64,000 bases of DNA, taken from assembly GCA_029319145.1 (NCBI GenBank), contig CP119753.1:744001-808000 (forward strand). Direction: 5' to 3'. The stretch comes from Microbacter sp. GSS18. Its GTDB lineage: Bacteria > Actinomycetota > Actinomycetes > Actinomycetales > Microbacteriaceae. The notes below the pieces were generated by a model that had not been told where the DNA came from, did not search any database, and was given only the letters and a program-made list of their open reading frames with translations. Positions 6,634-23,336 of the stretch are shown piece by piece. Within the stretch, counting starts at the first letter, position 1, and every line of letters begins with the position of its first letter. A program made the position numbers and the translations under genes.

Positions 6634-6666
6634 GGATACCGGGCTGATACCGGGCGGTGTGACGGT
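6634..6666 (+). promoter_or_regulatory. SARP-type promoter A (11-bp-spaced direct repeats and -10)
   Basis: GGATACC at 6634-6640 and TGATACC at 6645-6651 repeat with an 11-bp period; the second is followed 9 nt later by GACGGT (6661-6666) as -10. The same layout occurs before the genes at 7477, 15114 (minus) and 21108. Repeats of this period placed 8-9 bp before -10 are the known target geometry of SARP activators. Binding is inferred. Confidence 0.6.
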
Positions 6667-6691
6667 CATGGCAGATCGAAGGGAGATTCCG

Positions 6692-6916
6692 ATGTCGAGA
6701 ACACACCATGGCACCGACGTGGTGCGCGGGTTGCTGCGGACGGTGGGCGTGACCGCCCTCATCGGCCTCGGCGTGGTCGCCGGGGCCGCCGCAGCCGATG
6801 CGCGCCCGTCGCCCCACGGATCGGTCGAGGAGGAGTGCGCGCGGATCGTGCTCTGGGATGGCAAGTCGATTCTCAGCTGCACCGACGAGCAGGGGCTCTG
6901 GCCGCCGCTGACATGA
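6692..6916 (+). CDS. Small secreted protein, function unknown
   Basis: This predicted 74-residue protein has a Sec signal peptide (TVGVTALIGLGVVAGAAAADA, cut after ADA near residue 37) and a mature part of only about 37 residues with two cysteines (EEECARIV and LSCTDE) that could form one disulfide. ATG 6692 is chosen over upstream ATGs because GAAGGGAG precedes it by 6 nt and promoter A lies just before. No family is recognised. It is the first of the short exported products in the island and is probably activated through promoter A. A longer in-frame start at 6668 is possible but would sit on the likely transcript start. Confidence 0.6.
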   Translation: MSRTHHGTDVVRGLLRTVGVTALIGLGVVAGAAAADARPSPHGSVEEECARIVLWDGKSILSCTDEQGLWPPLT

Positions 6917-7021
6917 GCGTGTCGACGCGCCCGCGCCAGGTCCGTGCGGACGCCCCCGACGTGCCGGTGTCCGCTGTCGGCGCGGATCCCGGCGGCGCCG
7001 GAATGGGAAACGAGGTGGACC

Positions 7022-7348
7022 ATGAGAACGCGAATCGCGTCCGCGTGGGGATCGGTCCTGGGAGGTGGTGCGGCCGTTCTCTCGGTCGCGCTGGTGCTCC
7101 CGGTGGATGCCTACCCGGAAGCACCCGTGGGTGAAAGGGCGGTCGCTGCGGTCTGCATGACCGATGCGCAGGACACCGCGTCGACGGGCGAGGGCCCACC
7201 GCATCCGCCCGCGGACCGTCTCGAGGCGATGGCCGAACGCGATCGGTCCGAGAGCGGCGAGGGCGAGCAGCAGGCCGGTCTCTCGCAGACCCGCGCGCGG
7301 TACTTCCAGCAGCGTGAGTCGCGCACCTGGCACATGGAGATCCGCTGA
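7022..7348 (+). CDS. Small secreted protein, function unknown
   Basis: The 108-residue product begins MRTRIASAWGSVLGGGAA and has a classical signal peptide ending near LPVDA (residue 31). The mature part is hydrophilic, with one cysteine (AVCMTDAQ) and a charged region rich in Glu, Arg and Gln (ADRLEAMAERDRSESGEGEQ). ATG 7022 is preceded by GAGGTGG. It lies 105 nt after the previous small gene with no separate SARP-type repeat between them, so cotranscription from promoter A is likely. No family is recognised. The frame is open from 6944, but that extension has no signal-peptide logic. Confidence 0.55.
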   Translation: MRTRIASAWGSVLGGGAAVLSVALVLPVDAYPEAPVGERAVAAVCMTDAQDTASTGEGPPHPPADRLEAMAERDRSESGEGEQQAGLSQTRARYFQQRESRTWHMEIR

Positions 7349-7403
7349 TCGGTGTGGTGGCTCCACAGGAGTGGCTCCGGCCGTACCGCGGCCGTAACGG
7401 CTC

Positions 7404-7436
7404 GGACACCCGGCTGATACCTGCGTCTGTCACGCT
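7404..7436 (+). promoter_or_regulatory. SARP-type promoter B
   Basis: GGACACC at 7404-7410 and TGATACC at 7415-7421 repeat with an 11-bp period; CACGCT (7431-7436) follows the second repeat by 9 nt, the same spacing as sites A, C and D. It directs the 51-residue membrane peptide gene starting at 7477. Confidence 0.6.
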
Positions 7437-7476
7437 GTGGTGCACGATCGGGGAGTCCCAGACCGAGGGGGTGCAC

Positions 7477-7632
7477 ATGGAAGACGTCGCAGGCACGGCG
7501 ATCGCCGTCGCCGTCATGGTGGCCGTCATCGGGATGCTTTCGGTGCGACCGCCATGGCTGGGGATTCCACCGGCAGCAGACCTGCCGCCTGGTGATGATC
7601 ACCTCGACGAGCTCGACGAGTTCTGGCCGTAG
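7477..7632 (+). CDS. 51-residue single-helix membrane peptide
   Basis: The product is a short membrane peptide: MEDVAG, one hydrophobic helix (TAIAVAVMVAVIGMLSV, about residues 7-23), then a proline-rich linker and an acidic tail PPGDDHLDELDEFWP. ATG 7477 is chosen because GAGGGGG precedes it and promoter B ends at 7436; the open frame from 7354 would start upstream of the promoter. It converges on the 3' end of SARP-STAND regulator 1 (80 nt away). A decayed copy of its tail lies at 11100-11177, at the matching position beside regulator 2, so this peptide and the regulator appear to form a duplicated unit. Function unknown. Confidence 0.6.
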   Translation: MEDVAGTAIAVAVMVAVIGMLSVRPPWLGIPPAADLPPGDDHLDELDEFWP

Positions 7633-7711
7633 GTCGGCACAGCGCGGACCGCGACCGTCCGGAGGCCAGGAGCCGTCACGGCAGTTGAACCGGTCGGCCT
7701 CCTCGATGAGA

Positions 7712-10700
7712 TCACGGCGACTCGGGGCACGTGGGCTCATAGGGTTCGTCGCCGAGATACGTCCTCCATTCGTCCTCGGTCAGCTGACGTCCCGCCATGG
7801 CGCAGAGCCGGTCATGCAGCTCCGCCGTGGGCAGGATGTAGATGTTGTCGGTCGCCCCGAGCCGCCATCGCGTGATGGCCGGCTCAATCTGGTCGACGAA
7901 GATCACAACCTCGTCACCCCCGGGGAGCGCGTCGACCACGAAGGCCGCAGGAGGGAGTCCGGTGAAGGTGACACCGGTGTGCTCCCCGGTGAGCACCTCG
8001 TGTTCTGAGAACACAGAAAGACTGCTGCCGCACATGAACCCGTCCGGGGTCATCGCGAGGGGGTACGGGCATTCCACGACTTCGCGCGGCTGGCGCCATG
8101 TTTCCTCGGTCGTGGTGAGGTCCACACGAACGCTTCCGTTGCCGCCGAACGAGAGGAGGCCGCCCGCCCCGTCGGAGGCGAGGGCAAAGCTCAGCCCCGA
8201 TGCCGACAGTGGAATGGTCCGTGTCACTTCGAGCGATTCGGCATCGTGCACGAGGATGCGATCATCCGCGCTCACATACAGATCGTCGCCCACCAGCACG
8301 ACACCATCGAGGATCCCCGGTTCGCCCACGAAGTCCTCGGGCTCATGCGCACGCAGGGACATGACGGTGCCCGTGTCCCGCTCGATCCACGACGGCGAAG
8401 CGGTGACGGAGTGGATGAAGTACGCTCGGCTGCCGTCGTCGGTCACCGCCATGGCCGCGCTCGTCCGCGCGTCGACGAGGACCGTGTCGGTCGTCTTGCG
8501 CCCGGTGACCAGGTCGACGATGGTGAAGAAATTGACGCAGCAGTCCAGGCCGCCGTCGCTCGTCTCGCGACCCGCAGAGGTCTGGATGTACGCGGTCGAT
8601 CCGTCGGGACTGACCTCGAGATAGTGCCCCCAGTACCCGTCGGGCAGGTCGGCATCGAGCGGTTCCCCGAGGTCCTTGGTCTCCAGGTCGACCACGTGGA
8701 GCGCTGAATCGGTGACGACATCATCAACGAGCGTCCCGACGGCCACGAGCGCGGTCCGCGTGCCGGGAATCAGCGCTCCCGAGATGCGCGCGTCGTGGGG
8801 AAACACAATGGTGTCGACCAGGCCGGTGCCCGCGATGACGGACGTCATCGCGTCGTGGACACGTGTGTCATCCGGCCAGCGATGTCCCGCCTCGGCGGCC
8901 AAGAGCGCGGCAACCGTGACGTTGTCATCGCGCAGGTTCGCGGATGTCGCCACCAGCGCGTCGAGACGTGCCAGGTCGGCCGCGGCGAGCGCTTCGGCAC
9001 TGCGGAGGACCGCGATGCCGGTCGCCGCGACCGCGGTCACGAGCAGGACGCCCGCGGCGGCCAGCGCGATACGCAGGGTGCGGTTGCGACGCTTCTCGTG
9101 CGCGGCGCGCTGCTCGAGGCTGCGAATCTCGTGCGCATGACGTTCCGCCGCGGCTTCGAGGAACGCCGCCTCGGTGGCGGTCACGTCCGGTGACGTGCTC
9201 TCACGCCATTCGAGCGCCGCGTGGAGCCGACCGCCGCGGAGCAGATCGTCATCGGGCCGCCCTGCGGAGTCCCATGCCGCGGCGGCGGCCTCGATCTGGC
9301 GCAGCATGCGCGCGTTCTCCTCGTCCTCGGTGAGCCAGGCGTCCAGTCGCGGCCACGTGTGCGCCACGGCCTCATGCGCGATCACAGCGGAGTCGCCGTC
9401 GATCGTGACCAGACGGGCAGCCACCAGCCTCTCGACCACCGAGCGACGGGTCGCGTCCTCGGTGAGTGTTCCCAGTGCGACCCTTCGGCGCAGTGTCGAG
9501 GCCTCGGCGGAGCGCTCGACCATGCGCATCATCACCGATCGGCACGCTTCCTGGGCTTCGGGAGGCAGGTCGCGGTACACCTGGTCGGCGGACTGTGCGA
9601 TCGCGCCTGCGATGCCGCCGCTCGATTCATATCCGGCGATGGTGAGCGTGTTGCCCTCGCGATGCGTCCACGTCGCGACGAGCGCGTGCGACAGCGCGGG
9701 GAGGATCCCTGGTCGGTCGCCGGCGTCGTGCAGGATGACTTCCTCGAGACCGGGTTCGACCTTCAGGCCCGCATCTTCTGCGGGGCCGGTGATCGCCCGT
9801 CGGATTCCCGCTTCGTCGAGCGGCGAGAGTGCGTAGGTGCCGCGCCCGATCGCCACCCCGATGCGGGGCAGGGCCGTGGCGCGGTCGAGGAAGTCCGACC
9901 GGAGGGTCAGCACGAGACAGCCGCCGGCCTGGAGCCAGGAGTCGGCCTCGGACGCGAGTGCGTCGACGGCGTCCCGTGAGGCTCCGAGCAGCTCTTCCGC
10001 CTGGTCGAGGACGACCACGCCGGTCTCAGAGTCGAACACACTCCGGTCGAGCGAAGCGCCGAGCTCGCTCGGGGTGACAACCGTCACCCGAGCGCCGCGG
10101 TCTTGGAGAAGCGGCACCAGGCCCGCGCGCACGAGCGAGGACTTGCCCGACCCGCTGGGGCCGACGACCGCGACGACGGCGCGACGCACACACCGTGCGG
10201 CCAGGGCCGATGCGTCTGAGTCGCGTCCGAAGAACAGATCGCGGTCCTCGACGCCGAATGCCGCGAGACCGCGGTAGGGGCACTCGCCCGACACCAGTGG
10301 TGAGGACGAGTCGTCAGTCGGCGCGGCGAGCGTCGGGTCCTGGCGCAGGATGGCTGCTTCGAGGTCGACGAGGGATCTGCTGGGGTCGATCCCGAGCTCC
10401 TCGACCAGGCGGCTGCGAGCAGAGCGGAGGACGGCGATGGCCTCGGCCTGGCGATCGGCGCGGTAGTTCGCCAGGGCGAGCGTCGCCCACCGGCGCTCAC
10501 GCAGCGGCTCGGCGCGAACGAGCTGCTCGGCATCCGGGATGACCGCCGTGGATTCGCCGGCACGGAGGCGACAGTCCTCGAGTTCCTCCTCGGCAGTCTT
10601 GCGCAGCTCGAGCAGGCGCATCGCCTCGCTCGCGCCGGGTGGCCAGGATGCGACATCCGCCAGCGGGTCGCCCCGCCACAGGTCCAGAGCCCGTCGATAT

Positions 10701-11047
10701 GCGGCGACAGCCCGGTCGTGCGCGCCCTCGAGGTCCCGGTGACGGGCCTCGGCGATGCGCGTCTCGAACTCGACCGAATCCAGCGACGAATCCGCGACCG
10801 CCAGACGGTAGTTCTCGCCGACGGTCCGGATGACATCGGCGCCCAACTGTGCACGGATCTTCGCGACCGCATTCCGGATCTGCTGGGGCCAGGTCTGCGG
10901 AGGAGCTTCGCCCCAGCAGGCGGCGGCGAGCTCGTCCGGCGTGACGGCGCTGCCGCGCCGGACGATGAGTGCCTCGAGGATCGTTCGCTCTCTCGGGCTG
11001 AGCGACCCGCCGCCGGTGTCCAGCGGCCCCAGAACCCGCATGGTCAT
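7712..11047 (-). CDS. SARP-STAND regulator 1: winged helix, BTAD, STAND NTPase, TM helix, propeller-like C-domain
   Basis: A 1111-residue AfsR-like regulator. Order: OmpR/SARP-type winged helix (1-95, LSPRERTILEALIVRRG), BTAD helical domain (100-240, ALDLWRGDPLADV), and STAND NTPase entered by CPYRGLAAF with Walker A GPSGSGKSS (296-304) and Walker B VVVLDQAEE (344-352). A single hydrophobic helix (657-681) precedes a C-terminal beta-rich domain of about 400 residues with a CC pair (LDCCVNFF) and an end LTEDEWRTYLGDEPYEPTCP. If the helix is inserted, the DNA-binding half is cytoplasmic and the cysteine-bearing half outside. There is no Shine-Dalgarno site; a conserved leaderless promoter precedes ATG. 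Targets are inferred to be the SARP-type repeats nearby. Confidence 0.85.
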   Translation of the reverse strand: MTMRVLGPLDTGGGSLSPRERTILEALIVRRGSAVTPDELAAACWGEAPPQTWPQQIRNAVAKIRAQLGADVIRTVGENYRLAVADSSLDSVEFETRIAEARHRDLEGAHDRAVAAYRRALDLWRGDPLADVASWPPGASEAMRLLELRKTAEEELEDCRLRAGESTAVIPDAEQLVRAEPLRERRWATLALANYRADRQAEAIAVLRSARSRLVEELGIDPSRSLVDLEAAILRQDPTLAAPTDDSSSPLVSGECPYRGLAAFGVEDRDLFFGRDSDASALAARCVRRAVVAVVGPSGSGKSSLVRAGLVPLLQDRGARVTVVTPSELGASLDRSVFDSETGVVVLDQAEELLGASRDAVDALASEADSWLQAGGCLVLTLRSDFLDRATALPRIGVAIGRGTYALSPLDEAGIRRAITGPAEDAGLKVEPGLEEVILHDAGDRPGILPALSHALVATWTHREGNTLTIAGYESSGGIAGAIAQSADQVYRDLPPEAQEACRSVMMRMVERSAEASTLRRRVALGTLTEDATRRSVVERLVAARLVTIDGDSAVIAHEAVAHTWPRLDAWLTEDEENARMLRQIEAAAAAWDSAGRPDDDLLRGGRLHAALEWRESTSPDVTATEAAFLEAAAERHAHEIRSLEQRAAHEKRRNRTLRIALAAAGVLLVTAVAATGIAVLRSAEALAAADLARLDALVATSANLRDDNVTVAALLAAEAGHRWPDDTRVHDAMTSVIAGTGLVDTIVFPHDARISGALIPGTRTALVAVGTLVDDVVTDSALHVVDLETKDLGEPLDADLPDGYWGHYLEVSPDGSTAYIQTSAGRETSDGGLDCCVNFFTIVDLVTGRKTTDTVLVDARTSAAMAVTDDGSRAYFIHSVTASPSWIERDTGTVMSLRAHEPEDFVGEPGILDGVVLVGDDLYVSADDRILVHDAESLEVTRTIPLSASGLSFALASDGAGGLLSFGGNGSVRVDLTTTEETWRQPREVVECPYPLAMTPDGFMCGSSLSVFSEHEVLTGEHTGVTFTGLPPAAFVVDALPGGDEVVIFVDQIEPAITRWRLGATDNIYILPTAELHDRLCAMAGRQLTEDEWRTYLGDEPYEPTCPESP

Positions 11048-11053
11048 GGCGCC

Positions 11054-11082
11054 AGTGTTCCGCGTCTTCCGCGGCGAATCAA
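11054..11082 (-). promoter_or_regulatory. Leaderless promoter of SARP-STAND regulator 1
   Basis: On the minus strand TTGATT (11077-11082), 17 nt, AACACT (11054-11059), then 6 nt to ATG at 11047. The same arrangement and 6-nt spacing precede regulators 2 and 3. Confidence 0.7.
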
Positions 11083-11099
11083 TGAGACCGGCGACAGGC

Positions 11100-11177
11100 C
11101 GACCAAGCCGTGGGAGCCGCTGAGCGGCGGACGTGCCGCCGGGCGACGATCACCTCGACCAAGCCGACGAGTTCTGG
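11100..11177 (+). pseudogene. Decayed copy of the 51-residue membrane peptide gene
   Basis: Bases 11130-11177 match 7579-7626 at 40 of 48 positions by hand count and encode DVPPGDDHLDQADEFW against DLPPGDDHLDELDEFW. Upstream, CGACC and GCCGTGG still match the RPPW codons of the intact gene, but the frame is broken and a TGA lies at 11121-11123. The membrane-helix part and start are missing. The remnant lies just before the 3' end of regulator 2, the same position the intact gene has beside regulator 1. Confidence 0.65.
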
Positions 11178-11193
11178 AAGGCGAGACGCCGAC

Positions 11194-14100
11194 TCATGCA
11201 ACATCCGGACAGGTGCGCTGGTAGGGCTCACCGGAGAAGAACCGGTCCCATTCCTCCCGCGTCAACTGACGTGACGCGACGGCGCACGCGGCATCGCGCA
11301 TCTGATCGGCGTTCCGGACTGAGAACTCGCCGCTCGGCCGCCACCGCTGCAGCACGGCGGGGCTCTCGGTCGTCATCGCTGCGATCTCGGACACGCCCCT
11401 GAACCACTCCATCGTCGTGCTGTCGCTGGGCAGGGGTTCGAGGATGCGACGGAGGGCTTCGCCCGTGTCGAGACTGTGCGACCACACGCCGTCCTCGCGT
11501 GCGCAGAGGAACATCGACGGGGACACGGCCAGGGCCGATGCACAGTCCAAGTCCTTCACCTCCCAGATCACCTCACCATCGGGGAGGCCGAGGCGAACTC
11601 CCTTGACGGTCGAGATCGACAGCAGCCCGCCGTCGCCATCGGGGCCGACGTGCAGCGACGTCAACGAGACAGCCCGGCGGGTCGGCAGATCGAGCCGGTC
11701 GACGAGGGCGAGCGTCGAGGCATCGTAGACGCGAATGTGGTCGCGGGCGCCGACGTAAAGGTGGTCCTCGATGAGGGCGGACTGCTGGAGTCCGGTGTCG
11801 AGGAAAGCCAATCGCTGCGCGTCGCTGTCATCGCCCGTCGCAAGGTGGTCGGGGGAGACGACGATGCGGCCGGTGCGAAGGTCGATCATGACCGGCGAGG
11901 CAGCATATCTGTAGACCACGTACGCGGTGCTGCCGTCCGCAGAAAGCGCAGGCCGATCGGCGAGCTCCCCGTCGAGGGGGATGGTGGCGAGGGAGGCGCC
12001 GCCGGGCTGCAGCGGCACCGCCGTGAGCCGGCGCTCACAGCAGGTGCCGGGGTCCGCCGACGAGGAGACCTCGGTGAGGATGAGGGCGGTCGCCCCGTCC
12101 CCGCTGACGATCACCTCGCGATGCGGCGCCTCGGCCCGGATGTTGCGGTCGGGATCGATGATGAGCGACGGCAGATCGACGTCCAGTTCACGGACGACCT
12201 TGCCGCTGGTGAGGTCGATCATCTGAACGGCGTATCCGGATGGGCCGGCTGTCCGGGACTCGGGGGTGTCGACGACGACGAGCACACTGCGTCGTCCGGG
12301 AATCATCGCGCCCGCCACGACCGCGTCCTCGGGGAACCTCACGGTGCGCACCAAGCCCGCTGCCTGGGCGAGGGCGCCTTCCAGGGCGGTGAGGGCCCGT
12401 GGGTCCTCGGGCCAGCGGCGGTAGACCTCGGCCGCGAGCAGCGCGGCCGTCTCCCGGCCGGTCGCCGTGCTCAGAACCGCCGTCGTCAGTGCTTCGATGC
12501 GGGCATCCTCGGCAGCCGCCTGCGCGTCCGCGCTTCGCAGGATCGCCAGGCCCGAGGCGAGGATCGCGGCGACCAGCAGACTCGCAGCGGCGGTGAGCGC
12601 GACGCGCAGCCGGCGGTTGTCCGCCCGCTCATGTGCGGCGCGCGCCTCCAGTTCCCGCAACTCGTCTCGATGCGCGGCCGTCGATGCCTCGAGATAGTCG
12701 GACTCCGTGTCCGTGAGCATGGGCGCAGTCCGCTCCCGCCACTCGACGACCGTCTGGAGCCGGGCGCCGCGCATCAGATCATCGTCGGGGCGCCCGGCGG
12801 CGTCCCAGGCGGCAGCGGATGCTTCGGTCCGGTGGAGGGTCTCGGCGTCTCCCGCGTCATCGGCCAGCCATGCGTCCAGCCGCGGCCAGGTCCGGCCGAC
12901 CGCCTCGTGCGCGATCGTCGCCGAATCGCGATCGATCGTCACCAGCCGGGCGGCCACCAGCGACTCGAGGACGTCGCGGCGAGTCGCCCCGGCGATCAGC
13001 GCTTCCAGCGGGACGCGGCGGCGCACGTTCGCGCCATCAGGCGTCCGCTCGACGAGTCTCATCATCAACGCCCGGCACACCTCCTGGCCGTGCTCACTGA
13101 GCGCCTGATACACCCGTTCGGCGGACTGGGCGATCGCGCCCGCGATCCCTCCCGTGGCTTCGTATCCGGCCAGAGTCAAGGTCGCACCCTCCCGGTGCGA
13201 CCAGGTGGTCGCCAGCGCGTGGGACAGCGCCGGAAGGATCGCTGTCCGCTCGCCCGCGTCACGGAGCATGATCTCGACCAAGCCGGTCTCGAGTGCAAGG
13301 CCGGCGGTCTCCGCCGGGCCGACGATGACACGGCTGAGGCGGTCGTCGTCCATGGGGGAGAGGGCGTATACGTTCTGTCCGATCGCGGTTCCGATCGCCG
13401 GGAACGCCGTCGCCCGATCGAGGAAGTCGGAGCGAAGGGCGAGGATGAGGGTTCCGTCGCGATCCAGCCACGACCGGACGAGCTCGCCCAGCTCGCTCAG
13501 CTCATCGCCGGGCAGGGACAGGAGCTCCTCGGCCTGGTCCACCGCGATCGTCGCGGTGCCGTCGGCCAGCGCTTCCCGCAGTTCGACCACACCCTCCGCG
13601 TCCGGGGTGATCACCGCCACACGACGTCCGTGCTCGCGCAGGCGGGGAACGAGACCGGCGCGCAGCACCGATGACTTGCCCGACCCGCTCGGCCCGACGA
13701 TCGTCACGACCGATCGGGCTCCGGTACGGGGGAGGAGGGCTCGGACGTCGGCATCACGACCGAAGAACATCGCCGAGTCCTCGACGTCGTAGGCGGCGAG
13801 CCCACGGTACGGGCACTCCGAGACGCCTCCGCGCGCCTGCGCGCCGGACGGCGGCGCAGGAGGATCGAGCGCCGGGTCCTGGCGGAGGATGCCGACCTCG
13901 AGGTCGCGCAGCTCCCGCCCGAGGTCCAGCCCGAGCTCATCTGCGATCCGGCCGCGCGCGGACCTCACGACGGCGATCGCCTCCGCCTGGCGCCCGGCAC
14001 GGTAGTTCGCGAGGGCGAGGGACGCCCACCGATGCTCGCGCAGCGGGGCTTCGCGCACCATCCGCTCCGCGTCCGGAACGACCGTCGCATCCTCGCCCAG

Positions 14101-14586
14101 CCGGAGCCGCGCGTCGAGGAGCTCTTCCTCCGCGTCCGCGCGGAGCTCGCCCAGTCGCATCGCCTCGGTCTGCGCGGGCGACCAGTCGGAGACGTCCGCG
14201 TAGGGATCGCCGCGCCACAGGTCGAGTGCGTGGCGGTACGCAGCGACGGCACGGTCGTGGGAGCCTGTCAGCCCGTGGTGGCGGGCACGCGACAGCTCCC
14301 GCTCGAACTGCACCGCGTCGACAGCGTCGTCAGGGATGCCGAGGCAGTACCCCGAGCCGACGGTGCGCACGGCTTCCCTGCCGAGAGATGACCTGATCTT
14401 GGCGATCGAGTTCTGGATCTGCTGCGCCCACGTCTGCGGCCGGTTCTCTCCCCAGCATGCATCCGCCAATTCGCCCGGTGACACGGATCGCGCTCGCCGG
14501 AGGACGAGCGCGGACAGGATCGTTCGCTCCCTGGGGCTGAGTGCCGGCCCGTCATTCTGGAGCGGACCGAGGACGCGCACGGTCAT
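11194..14586 (-). CDS. SARP-STAND regulator 2
   Basis: The 1130-residue paralogue of regulator 1 has the same order: winged helix (1-95), BTAD (100-240, LDLWRGDPYADV), ECPYRGLAAY entry, Walker A GPSGSGKSS (298-306), Walker B TIAVDQAEE (about 346-354), one membrane helix (about 659-683, ALTAAASLLVAAILASGLA), and a beta-rich C-domain with GTCCERRL and the end LTREEWDRFFSGEP...TCP. STAND NTPases switch between ADP and ATP states on ligand sensing, and BTAD/winged-helix parts activate transcription, by family knowledge. It lies 17 nt from the decayed peptide gene and is preceded by the conserved leaderless promoter. The ligand is unknown. Confidence 0.85.
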   Translation of the reverse strand: MTVRVLGPLQNDGPALSPRERTILSALVLRRARSVSPGELADACWGENRPQTWAQQIQNSIAKIRSSLGREAVRTVGSGYCLGIPDDAVDAVQFERELSRARHHGLTGSHDRAVAAYRHALDLWRGDPYADVSDWSPAQTEAMRLGELRADAEEELLDARLRLGEDATVVPDAERMVREAPLREHRWASLALANYRAGRQAEAIAVVRSARGRIADELGLDLGRELRDLEVGILRQDPALDPPAPPSGAQARGGVSECPYRGLAAYDVEDSAMFFGRDADVRALLPRTGARSVVTIVGPSGSGKSSVLRAGLVPRLREHGRRVAVITPDAEGVVELREALADGTATIAVDQAEELLSLPGDELSELGELVRSWLDRDGTLILALRSDFLDRATAFPAIGTAIGQNVYALSPMDDDRLSRVIVGPAETAGLALETGLVEIMLRDAGERTAILPALSHALATTWSHREGATLTLAGYEATGGIAGAIAQSAERVYQALSEHGQEVCRALMMRLVERTPDGANVRRRVPLEALIAGATRRDVLESLVAARLVTIDRDSATIAHEAVGRTWPRLDAWLADDAGDAETLHRTEASAAAWDAAGRPDDDLMRGARLQTVVEWRERTAPMLTDTESDYLEASTAAHRDELRELEARAAHERADNRRLRVALTAAASLLVAAILASGLAILRSADAQAAAEDARIEALTTAVLSTATGRETAALLAAEVYRRWPEDPRALTALEGALAQAAGLVRTVRFPEDAVVAGAMIPGRRSVLVVVDTPESRTAGPSGYAVQMIDLTSGKVVRELDVDLPSLIIDPDRNIRAEAPHREVIVSGDGATALILTEVSSSADPGTCCERRLTAVPLQPGGASLATIPLDGELADRPALSADGSTAYVVYRYAASPVMIDLRTGRIVVSPDHLATGDDSDAQRLAFLDTGLQQSALIEDHLYVGARDHIRVYDASTLALVDRLDLPTRRAVSLTSLHVGPDGDGGLLSISTVKGVRLGLPDGEVIWEVKDLDCASALAVSPSMFLCAREDGVWSHSLDTGEALRRILEPLPSDSTTMEWFRGVSEIAAMTTESPAVLQRWRPSGEFSVRNADQMRDAACAVASRQLTREEWDRFFSGEPYQRTCPDVA

Positions 14587-14592
14587 GGTGGC

Positions 14593-14621
14593 AGTGTGGG
14601 TCGGGGGCGCAGACGCGTCAA
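14593..14621 (-). promoter_or_regulatory. Leaderless promoter of SARP-STAND regulator 2
   Basis: On the minus strand TTGACG (14616-14621), 17 nt, CACACT (14593-14598), 6 nt (gccacc), then ATG at 14586. It overlaps the approach to the 3' end of the lipoprotein gene (stop at 14629). Confidence 0.7.
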
Positions 14622-14628
14622 GGGCACG

Positions 14629-15114
14629 TCATCGCTGGACGACGCCGATGGCCACCATGGGCGGGGGCCACGGCCCGGGCTGCATCTGAACGATGATCGC
14701 GTAGCTGTCGTCGAAGAAGGTCCACAGCGACCCGCCTTGCGCCTCGGGGTCAGGGGGCTGTTCTTCAGCCGGACCCGCGATCCGTCCAAGCGCCTCGAGA
14801 AGCTGCTGCGCCTGCTCCTCGGACTGGTCGGTCTCGAAGATCATGTCCCAGACGCCGGGTCCCGCCATCGAGTGAACCAGCTCTCCCTCCGGAAGCGGGA
14901 TCTCCGCGGGGAAGTCCTCGGCGACGCCGTCGATCTCGGTGAGGTTCTCCCAGTCCTCGCCCCATGCCTCGTCGAACGCCTCCTGCCACGTCGTGATCTC
15001 CGGATCGGGGCTCGACGCCTCCGCGGTGCAGCCGGTGAGCAGGAGCAGGGTCGCGGCGAGGCTGGCGAGACGCAGACGCGCCGCGCCGCGGGGATGGACG
15101 GTGGTCGCGTACAT
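14629..15114 (-). CDS. Lipoprotein, function unknown
   Basis: The 161-residue protein has a lipoprotein signal: positive N-terminus (RGAARLRLAS), hydrophobic run LAATLLLLTG and lipobox LTGC with the modified cysteine near residue 29. The mature part is acidic (TTWQEAFDEAWGEDWENL) and may hold an alpha/beta fold; no family is recognised. ATG 15114 is supported by GAGGAAAG five bases upstream. Promoter D with SARP-type repeats lies about 60 bp before the start, linking it to the other short exported products. It is transcribed toward regulator 2, whose start is 43 nt past its stop; that regulator has its own promoter. Confidence 0.75.
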   Translation of the reverse strand: MYATTVHPRGAARLRLASLAATLLLLTGCTAEASSPDPEITTWQEAFDEAWGEDWENLTEIDGVAEDFPAEIPLPEGELVHSMAGPGVWDMIFETDQSEEQAQQLLEALGRIAGPAEEQPPDPEAQGGSLWTFFDDSYAIIVQMQPGPWPPPMVAIGVVQR

Positions 15115-15176
15115 GACATCTTTCCTCTCTGTGTCCTGGAGGAGGAGGTGTGACGTCGTCCCCCTCTGATGTCCAG

Positions 15177-15229
15177 AGGCTGACGCGGGCCGCTATCCGT
15201 CCGCTATCCGTCGCGGAGATCCGGTATCC
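15177..15229 (-). promoter_or_regulatory. SARP-type promoter D
   Basis: On the minus strand: GGATACC (15223-15229), GGATAGC (15203-15209) and GGATAGC (15192-15198); the last two are 11 bp apart. The final copy is followed 9 nt later by CAGCCT (15177-15182), matching sites A, B and C. It drives the lipoprotein gene. Confidence 0.6.
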
Positions 15230-15264
15230 GGTGCGCTGCCCGGCCCCTCTCCGGGCGGCGCGGC

Positions 15265-16647
15265 TCAGCCGAGGGACATGGCGAGTTCGCCCAGCCTCGC
15301 GCGGCCGGCCCCGATGCTGGCCTTGAGGCGGGCGACGGCGTCGTGCACGGCGGGATCGTCGGTCCGGTCCTCGGGGATGCGCGCGGGATTGAGCGTCGTC
15401 GTGTTCGCCCAAGCCCGGATGTCCGCTTGGCGTGACATCCCCTGCGACGCATCGCCGCCGACGATCTGCATCGTCACCCAATCCTCGGGCGTGTCGGAGT
15501 ACGGCGACGGGCGGCAGACGTCGTTGCGCTCCTCATCGGTCGACCGCGTGGCCTCCACGTACCCGGTCAGCGCCGCGCCGAAGCACGGGAAGCCCACACG
15601 CACGGTGCGCGGCCGGATCGCGTCGGGTTCCCAGATGGGCACGAGCGGCTGTGACGGCAGACCGGCGGCGGCGCAGTGCACGATCACCGCATCCTCCGAG
15701 ATCGCGACGTCTCCGTCGTCGAAGGTGAGTCGGCCGCGCCCCACCGACCGCACATGCCCGCGCCGCACGACGTCGTCGACGCGACGCAGCAGGTCGAGCT
15801 CCCACGTCGCGATGGTGGGTGTCTTGGCCATCCTCGGCGTCACCGAGCGATCGATGCGCAGCATGATGTCGCGATCTTCCAGCCGGGCGAAGATGTCGTC
15901 GGCCGAGTCCGCGTCGCGCACGGCCTCCATCGTGTCGGCCGCCATCCCGAGGAAGATCGCCGGGTCGGGCTGCACGACGGCGCGGTTGAGGATCCAGGGG
16001 TCGCGGGGACGCACCCAGCAGATCGCCGCGGGGTCGACTCCCTGCTGCTGGAGCCACACGCAGGCATCCATGGCGGTCTTGCCCGCTCCCACGATGACGA
16101 ACTGCTCCGGCCCCTCCACCAGGTGCACCAGGTCGTTCACCGCGATCACATCGGCGAGGTCTTCGACGACGAACGGCGGAGGAGAGGTGGCCGGGATCTC
16201 GCCCGACAGGTAGGCCGCGTCGACGATCCGCGCTCGCGGTGCCGCATAGCGCACACCGCTGATGCGCGAGTGGAACATCCCGTCGCCGTCGTATTCGCAG
16301 CCGGGGAAGAACGTCACACGGCCGGTCGCCTCGAGCTTGTCCATGATGCGTCCGTAGTACGCGCACACCTCGGGTGCGGTCGCGCGCTCCTGCAGGCCCT
16401 TCTCGGGGCCGCGGGTCTGCAGCCGGCCGCCGCCGAGCAGCGTGGACGCCACCCCGTAGAAGGCGGATGCCTGATGCAGCCGCACGAACGGGTACGCGTC
16501 GAGCCAGTGCCCGCCCGCTGCGTGCCGCCGATCGACGATCGCGACGGTCACGTCGGCGTGATCGACCAGCGCGTCGGCGAACGCCATCCCCATGGCGCCG
16601 GCACCCACGACCAGATAGTCGACGTCGACCTCTTCGGCTCTCGCCAT
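15265..16647 (-). CDS. FAD/NAD(P)-binding oxidoreductase (flavin monooxygenase-like)
   Basis: The 460-residue flavoprotein has an N-terminal dinucleotide-binding motif VVGAGAMGMAFADAL (about residues 12-26) for FAD and a second motif FVIVGAGKTAMDACVWL (about 190) for NAD(P)H, the layout of flavin-containing monooxygenases and related reductases. The substrate cannot be told. The frame is open to 16869, but ATG 16647 is the only start that places the FAD motif at the N-terminus; AGGAG lies 12 nt upstream. It follows regulator 3 by 64 nt on the same strand and may be cotranscribed with it. Confidence 0.75.
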   Translation of the reverse strand: MARAEEVDVDYLVVGAGAMGMAFADALVDHADVTVAIVDRRHAAGGHWLDAYPFVRLHQASAFYGVASTLLGGGRLQTRGPEKGLQERATAPEVCAYYGRIMDKLEATGRVTFFPGCEYDGDGMFHSRISGVRYAAPRARIVDAAYLSGEIPATSPPPFVVEDLADVIAVNDLVHLVEGPEQFVIVGAGKTAMDACVWLQQQGVDPAAICWVRPRDPWILNRAVVQPDPAIFLGMAADTMEAVRDADSADDIFARLEDRDIMLRIDRSVTPRMAKTPTIATWELDLLRRVDDVVRRGHVRSVGRGRLTFDDGDVAISEDAVIVHCAAAGLPSQPLVPIWEPDAIRPRTVRVGFPCFGAALTGYVEATRSTDEERNDVCRPSPYSDTPEDWVTMQIVGGDASQGMSRQADIRAWANTTTLNPARIPEDRTDDPAVHDAVARLKASIGAGRARLGELAMSLG

Positions 16648-16711
16648 GGGCCCATCACACTCCTGCCGCGCAGGCGCGTCAAGACACCGCACGGCGCCCC
16701 GCGCGACCGCA

Positions 16712-19700
16712 TCACCCGGCGGCGACGGACGTCGCCTGGGCGGGACACGTCTGCGCGTCGCGTTCGTCGCCGAGATAGGTGCGCCACTCGAGATCCGTGA
16801 GTTCGCGACTGACCATCGTGCACACGGCATCCCGCAGCGCATCGGGCCTGAGGTCCCACACGAGCACACCGTCGTCGGACGACGTCACCATCGCCTGCCC
16901 GTCGTCGCGCAGGAAGCCGACCGGCCAGAAGTTGTCGGGGTCGAACGCTCCGATGATCTCGTCGCCGAGCCGCCGTCCGTCGGTGAGGTCGTACAGGGCC
17001 ATGCGCTGGTCGAAGCTCGCGGTCAGCAGCAGCCTGCCGTCGCCGCTCACGGTCATGTGCATGGGTGCCGTCCCTGCTTTGGCGAGCGCCTCCAGCGGCG
17101 AGAGGTCCGCATCGCTGCGCAGCATGCGCTCGGCGTTCGCGCTCAGAATCGTGCCATCGGGCAGGGCGATGGCGATGCTGTCGTGCTCGAGTCCGCGGGC
17201 GAGCTCCTCGCCGGTCCCGATGTCGAAGACGGCCGTCCGGTCGACGCCCTCCGTCCTGCTGCGCCACGTCACCAGAACGCGTCCGGTGCCGGGGATCTCA
17301 CTGACCGCGAGATGCTCGCGCGCACCGTCGAAGGGGAGCGCGATCGGGTCGGCGGACGCCTCGCCGGTCTCGGGATCGAAGGCGATCAGGCTGTCCGACG
17401 TGATCGCCCACGCGTGACCGCCCGGTCCGCCCGGCAACAGCCACGCCTCGTCGGATTCGGCGATCGCGGTCACCGGATGGCGATCGCCCGAAGCGACGTC
17501 TTCGAGAGTCCAGGTGACACCGCGGTCGAGCCGGGCGACGACCGTGTCGCTCAGCCAGATCATCCCGAACGCCGGCTCGCCGACCGGCGCGTCCGCCTCG
17601 AGGTCCCACAGCCTCATGTACTCCAGTTCCGGATCGGTATCGAGAACGGTGCCGCTGGGCAGGAGACCCATCACGACGTCGGCGCGGGGACGGATGATGG
17701 CCATCGAACCGGACGCCCCGAAGCCATCCGTGAGGTCGAATCCCTCAGCCACCGGCCGCGTGATCGCGGGGGCGCCGTCGATCCGCCACCGCTGCAGCGA
17801 TGGAGGGTTGAAGGGGACCACCGTGACGAACTCATCGCCGCCCGGAAGGACGTCGACGGTGTAGTTGTCCTCTGACAGTGTGTCGAAGTTGCGGCCCGTC
17901 TCCTGTCCGGTCTCCAGGTCGTGCTCCTTGACGAGTCCGATGCCGGTGGCGCAGAGGAAGCTCGAGGGAGGAACGGCGACGCCGCTGACGCAGCGGAGCG
18001 CGGCCCCCTGACGCCACAGCACCTCTGACGTCGCGAGGTCCACGCGCACGGCACCCGAGTCCCCGACGGCGATGAGCCCCCCCGAAGCGTCGTCCATGAT
18101 CAGGATCTCGGTCAGCGATTCGCCCGGCAGCTCGATCGTGTCGACCGGCCGCAGCGAGTCCGGGTCGTAGACGGCGATGTGGTCGTCCATGCCGACGTAG
18201 AGCCGCCCGTCGATCAGCGCGAGTCCGTTGTAGCGGCCCGGGATGTTCTCGAACTCCTCCGGATCGTGCTCTCGCGACGCGAAGACCTCTCCGGTGGTCA
18301 GATCGATCAGAGAAGGAGCGCCCGTGATCCAGTGCGCGACGTACGCGCGCGACCCGTCCGGCGAGATCGCCGGCTTCTGTCCTGTGCGGGCGTCGACGAG
18401 GACCGTGTCGAAGTTGAGCGTGCCGGAGGCCAGGTCGATCGCCGTCATGTGGTTCGCGCAGCAGGTTCCCTCCGGCCGGAGGGCGCCCGTCTGGATGAAG
18501 GCCGTGGAGGCGTCCTCGCTGATGACGATGTCTCGCCAGATCTGGAAGTCCGCCGCGGGAAGGGGAACATCCAGCTCCTCGATCACGGCGCCGGTGTCGA
18601 GGTCGACGACCGCGGTCATTGTGTCGCCGCCGTCCCGCGATCCTGGGGGCGCGTCGGTCACCACGAGTGCCGTGTCGGTGCCCGGTATCAGACGTGCGCT
18701 CGCGAGGGATCCCGCGTCGAACCGGATCGTCCGCATCAGCCCACCGCCGCCGGTGAGGCTCCCCAGCAGCGCCGAGCGCGCGCGGGGGTCGTCGGGGTGG
18801 CGGCGATACAGCTCTGCGGCCAGGAGCGCCGCGACATCGCGGTCGCTGTCGCGGATGCTCAGGGACGTCGCCGCGAGCGCCTCGATACGCGCATCCGACG
18901 CCGAGGCCTGTGCCTCCGCGCCCCGGAGCGCAGCGATCCCGGTCGCCACGAGGGCGGCGACCAGGAGCACAGCAGCGGCCGCCAGCGACAGTCGAAGGCG
19001 CCGGTTGTTCGCGCGCTCGCGTGTCGCGCGGGCGGCGAGCTCCCGCACTTCGTTCTGCTGCCGCTCGGCGGCGGCGTCGAGGAACGCCGCCTCGACCTCG
19101 GTCAGATCGGGCGACGAGTCCTCCCGCCACTCCAGGGCGGCATGCAGGCGACCGCCTCGCAGCAGATCCTCCTCGGGTCCTCCCGCCGCGTTCCAGGCGG
19201 CCGCGGCTTGTTCGATGCCCCGCAGGATCCGCGCATTGGCGGCGTCCTCGGTGAGCCAGCCGTCCAGCCGAGGCCACGTGCGACCGACCGCCTCGTGCGC
19301 GATCATGGCCGCGTCGCCGTCGACCGTGACCAGGCGCGCCGTCACGAGGCGCTCGACCACAGACCTGCGCAGCGGATCCGCCGTCAGCGTCGACAGCGGC
19401 ACCCGCCGCCGGACCGTCACGCCCTCGGGCGTTCGCTCTATCAGGCGCATCATGAGAGAGCGGCAGACGTCGCGCCCCTGAGCGGAAAAGCTGGCGTAAA
19501 CGTGCTCAGCCGACTGGGCGATCGCGCCGGCGATGCCGCCGGCGGCCTCGTAGCCGTCCAGCGTCAGCGTGGAACCCTCGCGCCGCGCCCACGTCGCGGT
19601 GAGCGCATGCGACAGGGCGGGCAGGATCCCGGCACGCTCGCCGGCGTCGCGAAGGACGACCTCGAGCAGTCCGGGCTCCAGCCGCAGGCCGGTCGCCGCG

Positions 19701-20962
19701 GCCGGCCCGGTGACCGCTTCGTGGAGCATCGCGGTGTCGAGGGGCGAGAGGGCGTACACGCCCCGTCCCAGCTCGGCGCCGACGTCGGGGAGCGCGGTCG
19801 CTCGGTCGAGCACGTCGGACCGCAGCGTCAGGATGAGGCATCCGCCCCGCTCCACCCACGTCGCGGCGCGCGCGCTGAGCTCGCGCATGTTCTCCGGCGG
19901 GAGGGCGAGCAGCTCCTCCGCCTGGTCGATCCCGATGACCGATGCCCGATCGTCGAAGACAGCGGAGGACGCGCCGTCGGGAGCGACCATCTTCACACCG
20001 CGACCCTGCTCACGAAGCCGGGGAACCACGCCGGCGCGCATCAGTGACGACTTCCCCGAGCCGCTGGGGCCCACGATCGTGACGATCGAGCGCGGACGGC
20101 ACCGCGCGAGAACGGCCCGGACGTCCTCATCCCGCCCGAAGAACAGGGAGTCGTCCGTCTCGTCGTAGGCGGCGAGTCCGCGCCACGGACACGCTGCAGC
20201 CGCGGCATCCGTCTGCGAGGTCAGATCGTGGGCGGGGGCGTCGAGCGAGGCGTCGTGGCGCAGGATCGCGGTCTCCAGCTCGACGAGTCCGCGGCTCGGG
20301 TCGACGCCGAGGTCCTCGGCGAGACGTGTCCTCGCGGCGCGGAGGACGGCCATGGCCTCCGCCTGACGGTCGGCGCGGTAGTTCGCCAGCGCCAGCAGCC
20401 CCCACCGCCGTTCACGCAGGGGGTCCTCGCGCACGAGCCGCTCCGCGTCCGCGATGACGCTCGCCTGCTCGCCACTGCGCAGCCGCGCATCGAGCAGCTC
20501 GTCCTCGACGCTCGCGCGCACCTCGCTCAGGCGAAGGGCCTCGATCTCGCCCGGTGGCCACGATGCGACGTCGGGGAGGGGTGTGCCCCGCCACAGCGCC
20601 AGAGCCCGCCGGAATGACGCGACCGCGCGCTCGTGCGATCCCTCGAGACCGAAGCGGCGGCCCTCCGCCACCAGCCGCTCGAAGACCACCGCGTCGATCG
20701 CGTCCGCGTCGATGCCGAGCACATAGCCGTCGCCGACGGTCGTGATCGCCTCGGCACCCAAGCGCGAGCGGATGCGCGCGACGGCGTTGCGCACCTGCTG
20801 AGGCCATGTCGCGGGGAACTCGTCGTGCCACAGGGCATCGGCGAGTTCGGCGCTGGTGACCACGCTTCCGCGCCGCACGATGAGGGTCGCGAGCACGGTG
20901 CGCTCGCGAGGGCTCAGCTCGGGCCCGCCGATGTCCAGCGGCCCCAGGATCCGCACGGTCAT
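16712..20962 (-). CDS. SARP-STAND regulator 3 (long form)
   Basis: At 1416 residues this is the largest of the three paralogues. It has the same winged helix, BTAD (LALWRGTPLPDV), STAND NTPase with Walker A GPSGSGKSS (298-306) and single membrane helix (about 655-682), then a C-terminal region roughly 300 residues longer with WD40-like repeats (PMHMTVSGDGRLLLTASFDQ). The GTCCANHM pair and the end LTDLEWRTYLGDE...TCP are conserved. The open frame runs to 21124, but the true start is ATG 20962 (MTVRILGPLD), matching the other two regulators and preceded by the same leaderless promoter. The SARP-type site at 21014-21067 lies directly upstream, so autoregulation is possible. Confidence 0.85.
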   Translation of the reverse strand: MTVRILGPLDIGGPELSPRERTVLATLIVRRGSVVTSAELADALWHDEFPATWPQQVRNAVARIRSRLGAEAITTVGDGYVLGIDADAIDAVVFERLVAEGRRFGLEGSHERAVASFRRALALWRGTPLPDVASWPPGEIEALRLSEVRASVEDELLDARLRSGEQASVIADAERLVREDPLRERRWGLLALANYRADRQAEAMAVLRAARTRLAEDLGVDPSRGLVELETAILRHDASLDAPAHDLTSQTDAAAAACPWRGLAAYDETDDSLFFGRDEDVRAVLARCRPRSIVTIVGPSGSGKSSLMRAGVVPRLREQGRGVKMVAPDGASSAVFDDRASVIGIDQAEELLALPPENMRELSARAATWVERGGCLILTLRSDVLDRATALPDVGAELGRGVYALSPLDTAMLHEAVTGPAAATGLRLEPGLLEVVLRDAGERAGILPALSHALTATWARREGSTLTLDGYEAAGGIAGAIAQSAEHVYASFSAQGRDVCRSLMMRLIERTPEGVTVRRRVPLSTLTADPLRRSVVERLVTARLVTVDGDAAMIAHEAVGRTWPRLDGWLTEDAANARILRGIEQAAAAWNAAGGPEEDLLRGGRLHAALEWREDSSPDLTEVEAAFLDAAAERQQNEVRELAARATRERANNRRLRLSLAAAAVLLVAALVATGIAALRGAEAQASASDARIEALAATSLSIRDSDRDVAALLAAELYRRHPDDPRARSALLGSLTGGGGLMRTIRFDAGSLASARLIPGTDTALVVTDAPPGSRDGGDTMTAVVDLDTGAVIEELDVPLPAADFQIWRDIVISEDASTAFIQTGALRPEGTCCANHMTAIDLASGTLNFDTVLVDARTGQKPAISPDGSRAYVAHWITGAPSLIDLTTGEVFASREHDPEEFENIPGRYNGLALIDGRLYVGMDDHIAVYDPDSLRPVDTIELPGESLTEILIMDDASGGLIAVGDSGAVRVDLATSEVLWRQGAALRCVSGVAVPPSSFLCATGIGLVKEHDLETGQETGRNFDTLSEDNYTVDVLPGGDEFVTVVPFNPPSLQRWRIDGAPAITRPVAEGFDLTDGFGASGSMAIIRPRADVVMGLLPSGTVLDTDPELEYMRLWDLEADAPVGEPAFGMIWLSDTVVARLDRGVTWTLEDVASGDRHPVTAIAESDEAWLLPGGPGGHAWAITSDSLIAFDPETGEASADPIALPFDGAREHLAVSEIPGTGRVLVTWRSRTEGVDRTAVFDIGTGEELARGLEHDSIAIALPDGTILSANAERMLRSDADLSPLEALAKAGTAPMHMTVSGDGRLLLTASFDQRMALYDLTDGRRLGDEIIGAFDPDNFWPVGFLRDDGQAMVTSSDDGVLVWDLRPDALRDAVCTMVSRELTDLEWRTYLGDERDAQTCPAQATSVAAG

Positions 20963-20968
20963 GGTGGC

Positions 20969-20997
20969 AGTCTCATCGACCCCACGCGGCGGGTCAA
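20969..20997 (-). promoter_or_regulatory. Leaderless promoter of SARP-STAND regulator 3
   Basis: On the minus strand TTGACC (20992-20997), 17 nt, GAGACT (20969-20974), gccacc, ATG at 20962. The 17-nt spacer begins CGCCGCG, as in regulator 1. Confidence 0.7.
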
Positions 20998-21013
20998 CCG
21001 TGCGGGCGACGAC

Positions 21014-21067
21014 GGATATCGGACGGATATGCCCCGATCCCGTCTGGATATCGCCGGTCGTGACGCT
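21014..21067 (+). promoter_or_regulatory. SARP-type promoter C
   Basis: GGATATC (21014-21020), GGATATG (21025-21031, 11 bp on) and GGATATC (21046-21052, 21 bp on); 9 nt after the last copy is GACGCT (21062-21067). It faces the secreted-protein gene at 21108 and lies 17 bp behind the -35 of regulator 3. Confidence 0.6.
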
Positions 21068-21107: not shown

Positions 21108-21446
21108 ATGGACACGCAGAGCACGACACCGTCGGGCCGACGGGGTGGGACCCTCCTCGTCCTGGCGCTCGCGACGGTCGTGGGATTCGCCGCCCCCGCG
21201 GCCGCCGCGGCGATCGGCCAGGCGGGCGGCGCGGCATCGGTCAGCGGATCGCGGTGGCTGCAGGTGGACGAGTCGGAATCGGTGACGATCCTCCAGCGGC
21301 CCGTCTACGTCGACCCGCAGGCGCCGGCGGACCGCGCGGAGCGGATCATCCGCACCGAGCTGGAGCGGCGCCGTCAGGTCGCGGCGGATCTGCGGGGGAT
21401 GACCGCCGACCGCCTCGAGCGCGAGATCGGCGCACCGGGGGAGTGA
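21108..21446 (+). CDS. Small secreted protein, function unknown
   Basis: The 112-residue protein has a basic N-terminus (SGRRGGT), a signal helix LLVLALATVVGFAAPAAAAA (cut near residue 35) and a mature part with a hydrophilic helical end (ADRAERIIRTELERRRQVAA). It has no cysteine. ATG 21108 follows AGAAGGAG at 21093-21100 and promoter C. It diverges from regulator 3. No family is recognised; its size, export signal and promoter group it with the small proteins at 6692, 7477 and 15114. Confidence 0.65.
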   Translation: MDTQSTTPSGRRGGTLLVLALATVVGFAAPAAAAAIGQAGGAASVSGSRWLQVDESESVTILQRPVYVDPQAPADRAERIIRTELERRRQVAADLRGMTADRLEREIGAPGE

Positions 21447-21550: not shown

Positions 21551-22390
21551 ATGAACGTAAAGCCATGGAGCACGATCTCACCGGGCCACGACTGGTTCCC
21601 GGTCACGGGATTCCAGTACCTGCTGAAGGAGCACGGGCACCCGGTGCTCGTCGACGGGCTCTTCGGACCCGCGACGGAGGCCGCCGTCAAGGCCTTCCAG
21701 TCGTCGGCCGGGATCGCCGTCGACGGGATCGTCGGGCCGCAGACCTGGTCCAAGCTGGTCGTCACGACCAAGCAGGGAAGCACGGGCGATGCCGTCCGCG
21801 CCGTCCAGGCGTTCGGTCTGTCGCCTTCGCCGGGCGTTCCGCCGCTCGTGGTCGACGGCATCTACGGGCCGACCACCGCCGGGCACGTGCGCTTCTATCA
21901 GGAGTCGTGGGGGCTCACGCAGGACGGCATCGCCGGGCAGGAGACGTGGTCGTTCCTCAGCGCCGCGACCCCCGGCAGCACGACGTGGCCGCTCGTCAAG
22001 GTGGGTGCCACGCAGGCCACCAACTGGCGCGTGCTCGCCGCCCAGCACCTGCTGCGCGAACACGGCTCGGGCATCGTCGCCGACGGCATCTTCGGCCCGC
22101 TCAGCGGTGCAGCGGTCTCGGCCTTCCAGCAGACGCTGCGCACCGATGAGATCAGCACCACGATCGGCCAGCTCGACTGGCCGCATCTGATCGTCACCGT
22201 CAAGGCCGGCGACAACGGCGAGGCGGTGCGTGCGGTGCAGACCATGTTCGGGTCGCTCGCCGTCGACGGCGTCTTCGGGCCCCAGACGGACGCGGCCGTT
22301 CGCGACTACCAGCAGATGCTCGGGCTGACCGTCGACGGCATCGTGGGCCCGGTCACGTGGCACGTGCTCACGCTGCGCCTGTACGAGTGA
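21551..22390 (+). CDS. Peptidoglycan-binding repeat protein 1 (four repeats)
   Basis: The 279-residue protein consists of four PG_binding_1-type repeats, each with VDGxFGPxT, a helix containing FQ or YQ, and GIVGPxTW: about residues 20-65, 85-135, 165-215 and 230-275. Such repeats bind cell-wall peptidoglycan. There is no catalytic domain, and no signal peptide or membrane segment is visible (start MNVKPWSTISPGHDW), which is odd for a wall binder. ATG 21551 is preceded by AGGAG. A paralogue follows 88 nt downstream. A weak match to the SARP-type site (around 21486-21510) lies upstream, but its spacing is off by one. Confidence 0.8.
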   Translation: MNVKPWSTISPGHDWFPVTGFQYLLKEHGHPVLVDGLFGPATEAAVKAFQSSAGIAVDGIVGPQTWSKLVVTTKQGSTGDAVRAVQAFGLSPSPGVPPLVVDGIYGPTTAGHVRFYQESWGLTQDGIAGQETWSFLSAATPGSTTWPLVKVGATQATNWRVLAAQHLLREHGSGIVADGIFGPLSGAAVSAFQQTLRTDEISTTIGQLDWPHLIVTVKAGDNGEAVRAVQTMFGSLAVDGVFGPQTDAAVRDYQQMLGLTVDGIVGPVTWHVLTLRLYE

Positions 22391-22478: not shown

Positions 22479-23336
22479 ATGAACGTCATGCCTTGGAGCA
22501 CGGTGCACGGCGGCCACGCGTGGACCGTCGGCGCCGGCATCCAGTACCTGCTGAAGGCCCGCGGCCACGCGCTGTCGGTGAATCCGATCATGCTGGATCC
22601 GGCGGCCGTCGCGGCTCTCACGGCCTTCCAGTCATCGGTCGGCGTCGCGCCGGACGGCGTGTGCGGCCCGGCCACCTGGTCGCAACTGGTGGTCACGACC
22701 CGTCAGGGGAGCAGCGGAGACGCGGTCAGGGCGGTCCAGCAGTTCGGGCTGCGCGGGATTCCGGGAGCGGATCCGCTGGTCGTCGACGGCATCTACGGGC
22801 CGATCACCGCCGAGTGCGTGCGCATGTTCCAGCGGGCGTGGGGCCTGACCGTGGACGGCATCGCAGGGCCCGAGACATGGTCGTTCCTGAGCACGCTGTT
22901 CCCGAGTCCGCAGCGCCCATGGCCGCTGGTGAAGGTCGGCGCGACGCAGGCGCACAACTGGCGGGTGGTCGCCGCCCAGCACCTGCTGCGCGAGCACGGC
23001 GCCGCCATCGCCGCAGACGGGATCTTCGGCCCGCTCAGCGGCGAGGCGATCAGGACCTTCCAGCAGACGCTGCGCGCCCTCTACATCAGCACCACCGTCG
23101 GCCAGCTCGACTGGCCCGCACTGATCACGACCGTGCACCTGGGCGTCTCGGGAGACGCCGTGGCGGCGGTGCAGCACCTGTTGATCGCGAACGGTCAGGC
23201 GATCACCGCCGACGGCGCTTTCGGACCCGCCACGGATGCCGCGGTGCGCGCGTATCAGGCGAGCTTCGGGCTCGCCGTGGACGGTGTGGTCGGCCCGAAC
23301 ACGTGGCACAGTCTCACCCTCCAGCCGTTCGACTGA
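22479..23336 (+). CDS. Peptidoglycan-binding repeat protein 2 (four repeats)
   Basis: The 285-residue tandem paralogue of the preceding gene starts [15 protein letters not shown] and has four matching repeats, including [17 protein letters not shown] and the end [18 protein letters not shown]. Its first repeat is less typical (no VDGxFGP). It too lacks a visible signal peptide, membrane helix or enzyme domain. Sequence between the pair is closely similar along the whole length, so it arose by duplication. GAGAGAAGAGG precedes the start. Function beyond wall binding is unknown. Confidence 0.8.

Follow-up and report, generated by a model that had tools for sequence, protein, structure and literature searches.

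Tandem-repeat promoter elements beside predicted membrane-anchored SARP regulators in Microbacter sp. GSS18, with a candidate two-residue recognition code

The region analysed is a window of 64,000 nt, the whole stretch CP119753.1 744,001-808,000 (forward strand), from Microbacter sp. GSS18, whose genome of 4.03 Mb is Microbacterium-like. Three genes for SARP-type regulators, four promoter-like sites (A to D) and several small genes are found at the following window positions:

6634..6666, plus strand: site A, with GGATACC (6634-6640) and TGATACC (6645-6651) 11 bp apart, then 9 nt and the -10 hexamer GACGGT (6661-6666)
6692..6916, plus strand: gene A1, 74 aa, with an N-terminal hydrophobic signal-like segment (by eye) and no Pfam match
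7022..7348, plus strand: gene A2, 108 aa, secreted-like (by eye), with a PADRLE motif
7404..7436, plus strand: site B, with the imperfect copy GGACACC (7404-7410) and TGATACC (7415-7421) at an 11-bp period, then 9 nt and CACGCT (7431-7436)
7477..7632, plus strand: gene B, 51 aa, with one hydrophobic segment (by eye)
7712..11047, minus strand: SARP1, with wHTH, BTAD, nSTAND1, predicted TM segment and propeller; helix residues R58 and N59
11194..14586, minus strand: SARP2, resembling SARP1 by sequence; helix residues Q58 and N59
14629..15114, minus strand: gene C, a 161-aa lipoprotein-like protein directly upstream of SARP2
15177..15229, minus strand: site C, with GGATACC (15229-15223), GGATAGC (15209-15203) and GGATAGC (15198-15192) at steps of 20 and 11 bp, then 9 nt and CAGCCT (15182-15177)
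16712..20962, minus strand: SARP3, 1416 aa, R58 and N59, with a predicted TM segment at about 661-679 followed by a predicted ectodomain
20786..20791, minus strand: codons of SARP3 residues 58 and 59 (X1 and X2), the proposed specificity pair
20969..20997, minus strand: promoter-like sequence of SARP3, TTGACC, 17 nt, GAGACT and 6 nt to the start codon; its transcript would be leaderless
21014..21067, plus strand: site D, with GGATATC (21014-21020), GGATATG (21025-21031) and GGATATC (21046-21052) at steps of 11 and 21 bp, then 9 nt and GACGCT (21062-21067)
21108..21446, plus strand: gene D, 112 aa, secreted-like (by eye), with PADR and TADR motifs

Inspection of the four sites confirmed what an earlier note on this DNA had described, and each was found in place with its 9-nt spacer and poor -10 hexamer. 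All of them consist of GGATAnC-type tandem repeats with an 11-bp period, followed after exactly 9 nt by a hexamer of the form xAnnnT. The accompanying claim that the genes behind the sites are unrelated is imprecise, as genes D and A2 have an ADR motif in common. Between A1 and A2 lies a gap of 105 nt in which no repeat array was seen by eye, and these two genes are perhaps co-transcribed.

The pattern GATAnC-N9-SAnnnT occurs exactly four times in the window, at sites A to D, against a mean of 0.76 in dinucleotide shuffles (n = 100); one of the 100 shuffles also attained four matches, which makes the single half-site no more than moderately unusual. Tandem forms, with patterns picked after the sites had been seen, were observed two to three times; 100 order-2 Markov simulations put the expectation at 0.00-0.04 per 64 kb. 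Across the whole genome GATAnC-N5-GATAnC gave four matches and none in the reversed control, and the single half-site with its -10 hexamer gave 30 and six, respectively. Genome-wide occurrence at random frequency, which the earlier note named as the finding that would refute its reading, is excluded here for the tandem motif but not for the single half-site. Seven of the 30 single-form matches have an additional copy (six or seven of seven letters) 11 or 21 bp upstream and an eighth, L170, has a six-of-seven-letter copy at 22 bp; with no other copy at 11 or 20-22 bp in the remaining 22, the single form was rejected as a definition of the regulon. A scan of a set of genome contigs gave two weak loci only. 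Sites A and C account for two of the four tandem places, sites B and D each being one letter of a copy away from the exact pattern. The other two lie beyond the window, where each precedes a gene and again has xAnnnT after 9 nt:

1701470: mixed half-sites, preceding a protein of 754 aa that has tachylectin repeats by Pfam and, by eye, an HEVLH stretch
2880211: preceding a protein of about 200 aa, secreted-like and with no Pfam match

All three SARPs of the window exceed the cut-offs of PF00486 and PF03704 (an OmpR-type wHTH followed by BTAD), and score 303-321 bits against PF20703 (nSTAND1; cut-off 27.1). SARP3 matches the AfsR chain with an E-value of 1e-28; against the AfsR orthologue model NF053617 the three reach 130-145 bits, below its cut-off of 1430. 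Eight BTAD matches are found in the genome, six of which make up two clusters of three. Of 366 congeneric genomes, 30 contain relatives of SARP3 residues 1-600 (E ≤ 1e-60); among 398 genomes taken from the family, 11 do so, and these belong to eight of 85 genera (own genus included). The AlphaFold2 model of SARP1 (mean pLDDT 88, pTM 0.54) contains wHTH-BTAD, an NTPase, a long helix and a propeller, the mutual arrangement of which is not fixed because of the pTM value. Its Foldseek matches to solved structures include AfsR, EmbR, Apaf-1 and WD40 propellers.

The neighbouring SARPs appear to be single-pass membrane proteins, predicted to have one strong TM segment and a β-propeller beyond it. 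Among the best 120 of 3245 homologues, the strongest hydrophobic segment begins at residues 603-709 in all 120 and at 640-700 in 115, with a second, weaker segment in 42. It is unlikely, though less so than the other alternatives considered below, that the proteins are soluble, with the stretch near residue 660 as a buried helix and the propeller sensing a cytoplasmic ligand in the manner of Apaf-1. Apaf-1 is indeed among the structural matches, the hydrophobic stretch of the SARP1 model has a pLDDT under 50, and the conserved Cys 256 and Cys 502 fall in the supposed inside part. Against this, all 118 homologues compared, from the same best 120 of 3245, have more Lys and Arg before the segment than behind it, and six of the eight Cys columns conserved across 39-40 of 40 sequences lie beyond the segment. 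The predicted membrane topology recalls the one-component regulators of the CadC/ToxR type, which have a wHTH inside, a TM helix and a sensor outside; those are not known to contain BTAD or a STAND NTPase, whereas both are present here.

Comparison of the regions upstream of 52 SARP genes extended the analysis beyond the window. A helix motif was parsed in 37 of these proteins, and 33 of the 37, SARP3 included, have an operator; the covariation count leaves out the 15 without a parsed motif and the four without an operator, among which are SARP1 and SARP2 at their own starts. In 31 of the 33 loci the first repeat begins at a distance of 51-53 nt from the SARP start codon, with the second 11 bp away, as located by a repeat finder that favours TA[CT][CG] cores, a choice made after looking; likewise post hoc, the half-site of two loci was read from the second repeat. 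A third copy (at least five of seven letters) follows 21 or 22 bp past the second at 30 of the 33. Exactly 9 nt after it stands xAnnnT in all 30 testable loci, whereas no other spacer between 3 and 17 has it in more than one of the 30. The first base of this hexamer is G in 21, C in six, A in three and T never. Towards the SARP gene, a TTGAC-like hexamer (TTGAC, TTTAC or TTGCG accepted) starts 35-36 nt from the start codon in 32 of the 33. Seven long-form loci from five other genera have the 9-nt spacing in 7/7, and the short-form SARP clade has xAnnnT at this distance in 1/10. Judging from these upstream sequences, the tandem-repeat element is genus-wide with half-sites that differ among loci, which the earlier note had not anticipated. 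By eye, seven short-form loci (L094, L096, L143, L144, L151, L162 and L163) have up to four copies (steps of 11, 20-21 and 11 bp) and, 9 nt past the last, TnnACT, a -10 hexamer weakened at another base. Upstream of position 8284 of L091, a KT-type SARP gene adjoining a large unrelated reading frame, no repeat array was found.

The array usually faces a small gene at the 33 loci. The repeats might alternatively be the site of a SARP-bound repressor, or a purely autoregulatory site of the SARP gene, with the small divergent gene being incidental. The distance from array to SARP start codon is fixed, as given above; between the -10 hexamer and the start of the small gene, by contrast, loci that have a third copy show anything from 12 to about 105 nt (starts chosen by script), and some loci, such as L013 at 12704 and L140 at 3411, have no clear small divergent gene. 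That alternative is nevertheless quite improbable, given that 9 nt invariably separate the array from the -10 hexamer towards the small gene (30/30) and that sites A and B, as well as the two places outside the window, do not stand at a SARP start.

Among 696 alignment columns, residue 59 (X2) ranks first for half-site position 2, for position 3 and for both jointly, and residue 58 (X1) ranks first for position 6; position 1 is best tracked by residue 192, outside the helix. Residues 58 and 59 are adjacent in the recognition helix and align without gaps with R87 and T88 of AfsR. The residue pairs and half-sites at the 33 loci are as follows:

RN: GGATATC (10 loci) or GGATATG (one) as first repeat
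KT: [GC]AGTACC at 10 of 11 loci; GGATACC at the exceptional one
KK: GGGTACC (two loci), one of which exceptionally has a GGGTATC copy
QQ: GAATACC (three loci)
QA and HA: xCATACC in at least one copy (three loci)
PQ: GAATATC/GAATACC
KV: GGATACC
RT: GAGTATC

Two residues of the activator seem, on this covariation, to spell which DNA repeat is read. Ancestry alone does not easily explain their rank, because the other columns have the same tree. The best nSTAND1 tree has RN in three places, joined by branches without resolution; independent pairs number one to two on well-supported branches and two to five on all branches, too few to reach 0.05. The seven long-form loci from other genera had not been used in deriving the relation. 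At the six with a pair already known, the half-site is as expected in 6/6 (KT in three, one of them with a mixed first repeat, and QA in three). The seventh has QI with GGATACC; its pair is absent from the 33 loci, and the locus resembles only L092, which was left out.

The GATAnC pair was also tried on 149 congeneric genomes and rejected: 88 had a match, the reversed control matched in dozens too, and most of the listed places are not next to listed SARP places; in G082, G110, G045, G087 and G130 the coordinates put a match about 100 bp or less from a SARP start. The many matches far off SARP genes would suit a non-SARP regulator or a special sigma factor reading GGATAnC, an explanation rendered very improbable by the covariation of half-site and SARP recognition helix and by a geometry that is that of AfsR.

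SARPs bind direct heptamer repeats, classically with an 11-bp period, and the review PMC10972967 portrays them chiefly as antibiotic-cluster activators. At the afsS promoter of Streptomyces coelicolor, two 11-bp repeats overlap the -35 region ahead of the weak -10 hexamer CACTGT, and T88 of AfsR contacts a base (PMC10936776). Sites A to D resemble this afs box in having 11-bp direct repeats over the -35 region and a weak xAnnnT next to SARP-domain proteins, and T88 aligns with the position that covaries here. A difference is the third copy that the arrays here often have, 21-22 bp away from the pair; in the proteins, nSTAND1, a propeller and a predicted TM segment stand in place of the NOD and the TPR region found in AfsR. 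EmbR of Mycobacterium tuberculosis is similar in the fold of the N-terminal 250 residues but has an FHA domain (PMC10936776) in place of the STAND-TM-propeller part. PimR and other SARP-LALs, as well as small and medium SARPs, share the SARP domain and the direct heptamer repeats; they are distinguished by domain layout and by targets that are named in PMC10972967 as antibiotic genes, as opposed to the small secreted proteins here.

The SARP interpretation of sites A to D is well supported at the level of sequence, and the activation proposed in the earlier note agrees with the AfsR/afsS-like geometry, the SARP genes adjoining the sites, the covariation of half-site and helix, and the loci from other genera. 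The sites are probably SARP-activated promoters, and the neighbouring, apparently membrane-anchored SARPs the activators that would connect an outside signal to small secreted or lipoprotein genes. Each site would be an activator-dependent promoter at which SARP-domain protomers bind the tandem repeats, the gene-proximal repeat sitting 9 nt from a -10 hexamer without the usual first T; for that reason RNA polymerase would need the activator, as with AfsR at afsS. The DNA-binding part and STAND NTPase would lie inside and the β-propeller outside, so that a signal could be relayed by the STAND module to the DNA-binding part, with the small genes being switched on as a result. X2 would go with half-site positions 2-3 and X1 with position 6.

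Sites A to C may answer to a different paralogue than site D. By the residue relation, site D (GGATATC) would be that of SARP3 (RN), possibly that of SARP1. Sites A, B and 2880211 (GGATACC) should be read by SARP2, whose QN pair has no operator at its own start for comparison, and site C (GGATAGC) perhaps belongs to SARP2 as well. A wider proposal, which we put forward only tentatively, is that these are transmembrane STAND receptors, which convert a signal from outside directly into transcription, that this signal is perhaps the induced lipoproteins themselves, and that a two-residue/three-base code readable from sequence keeps the paralogues separate. The roles of SARPs would widen with a branch that is predicted to be membrane-anchored and to target small secreted proteins, and a simple recognition code would permit SARP regulons to be predicted from sequence. 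The main text of the review PMC10972967 contains the words 'membrane' and 'WD40' nowhere. Neither a membrane SARP nor such a code is described among the matches listed in one open-access library, an absence that is weak evidence because the search covered abstract openings with partly broad terms.

The small genes opposite the operators differ with operator type. A small ADR-motif protein is encoded opposite RN-type operators in 11/11 cases, nine of them with a lipobox, as against 3/22 (ADR) and 4/22 (lipobox) for non-RN operators, with gene starts picked by script and some of them doubtful. The ADR-type small lipoprotein family has matches in 13 of 366 genomes at 16 places, 12 of which are rows of the query alignment; the other four genes, outside arrays, have no repeat array within 330 nt upstream. 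The small lipoproteins were accordingly rejected as exclusive partners of SARPs, and the family is not tied to SARPs alone. A relationship of gene A1 to this family through a Cys-Cys module, suspected by eye, gained no support from profile comparison, which gave no match for gene B and, for gene C, a match over the signal-like start only. Between SARP1 and SARP2, the plus strand at 11130-11180 encodes PPGDDHLDxxDEFW, resembling by eye the end of the gene B protein, and is perhaps the remnant of a B-like gene formerly divergent from SARP1. Behind gene D lie two adjacent similar-looking genes (21551-22390 and 22479-23336), neither with an obvious signal peptide by eye and the first with four peptidoglycan-binding stretches (Pfam). 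At L207 (about 7000) and L208 (about 4850), ADR-type lipoprotein genes are located, by eye, downstream of an inverted repeat near TTGGTC/GACCAA and adjoin a possible GntR-like regulator.
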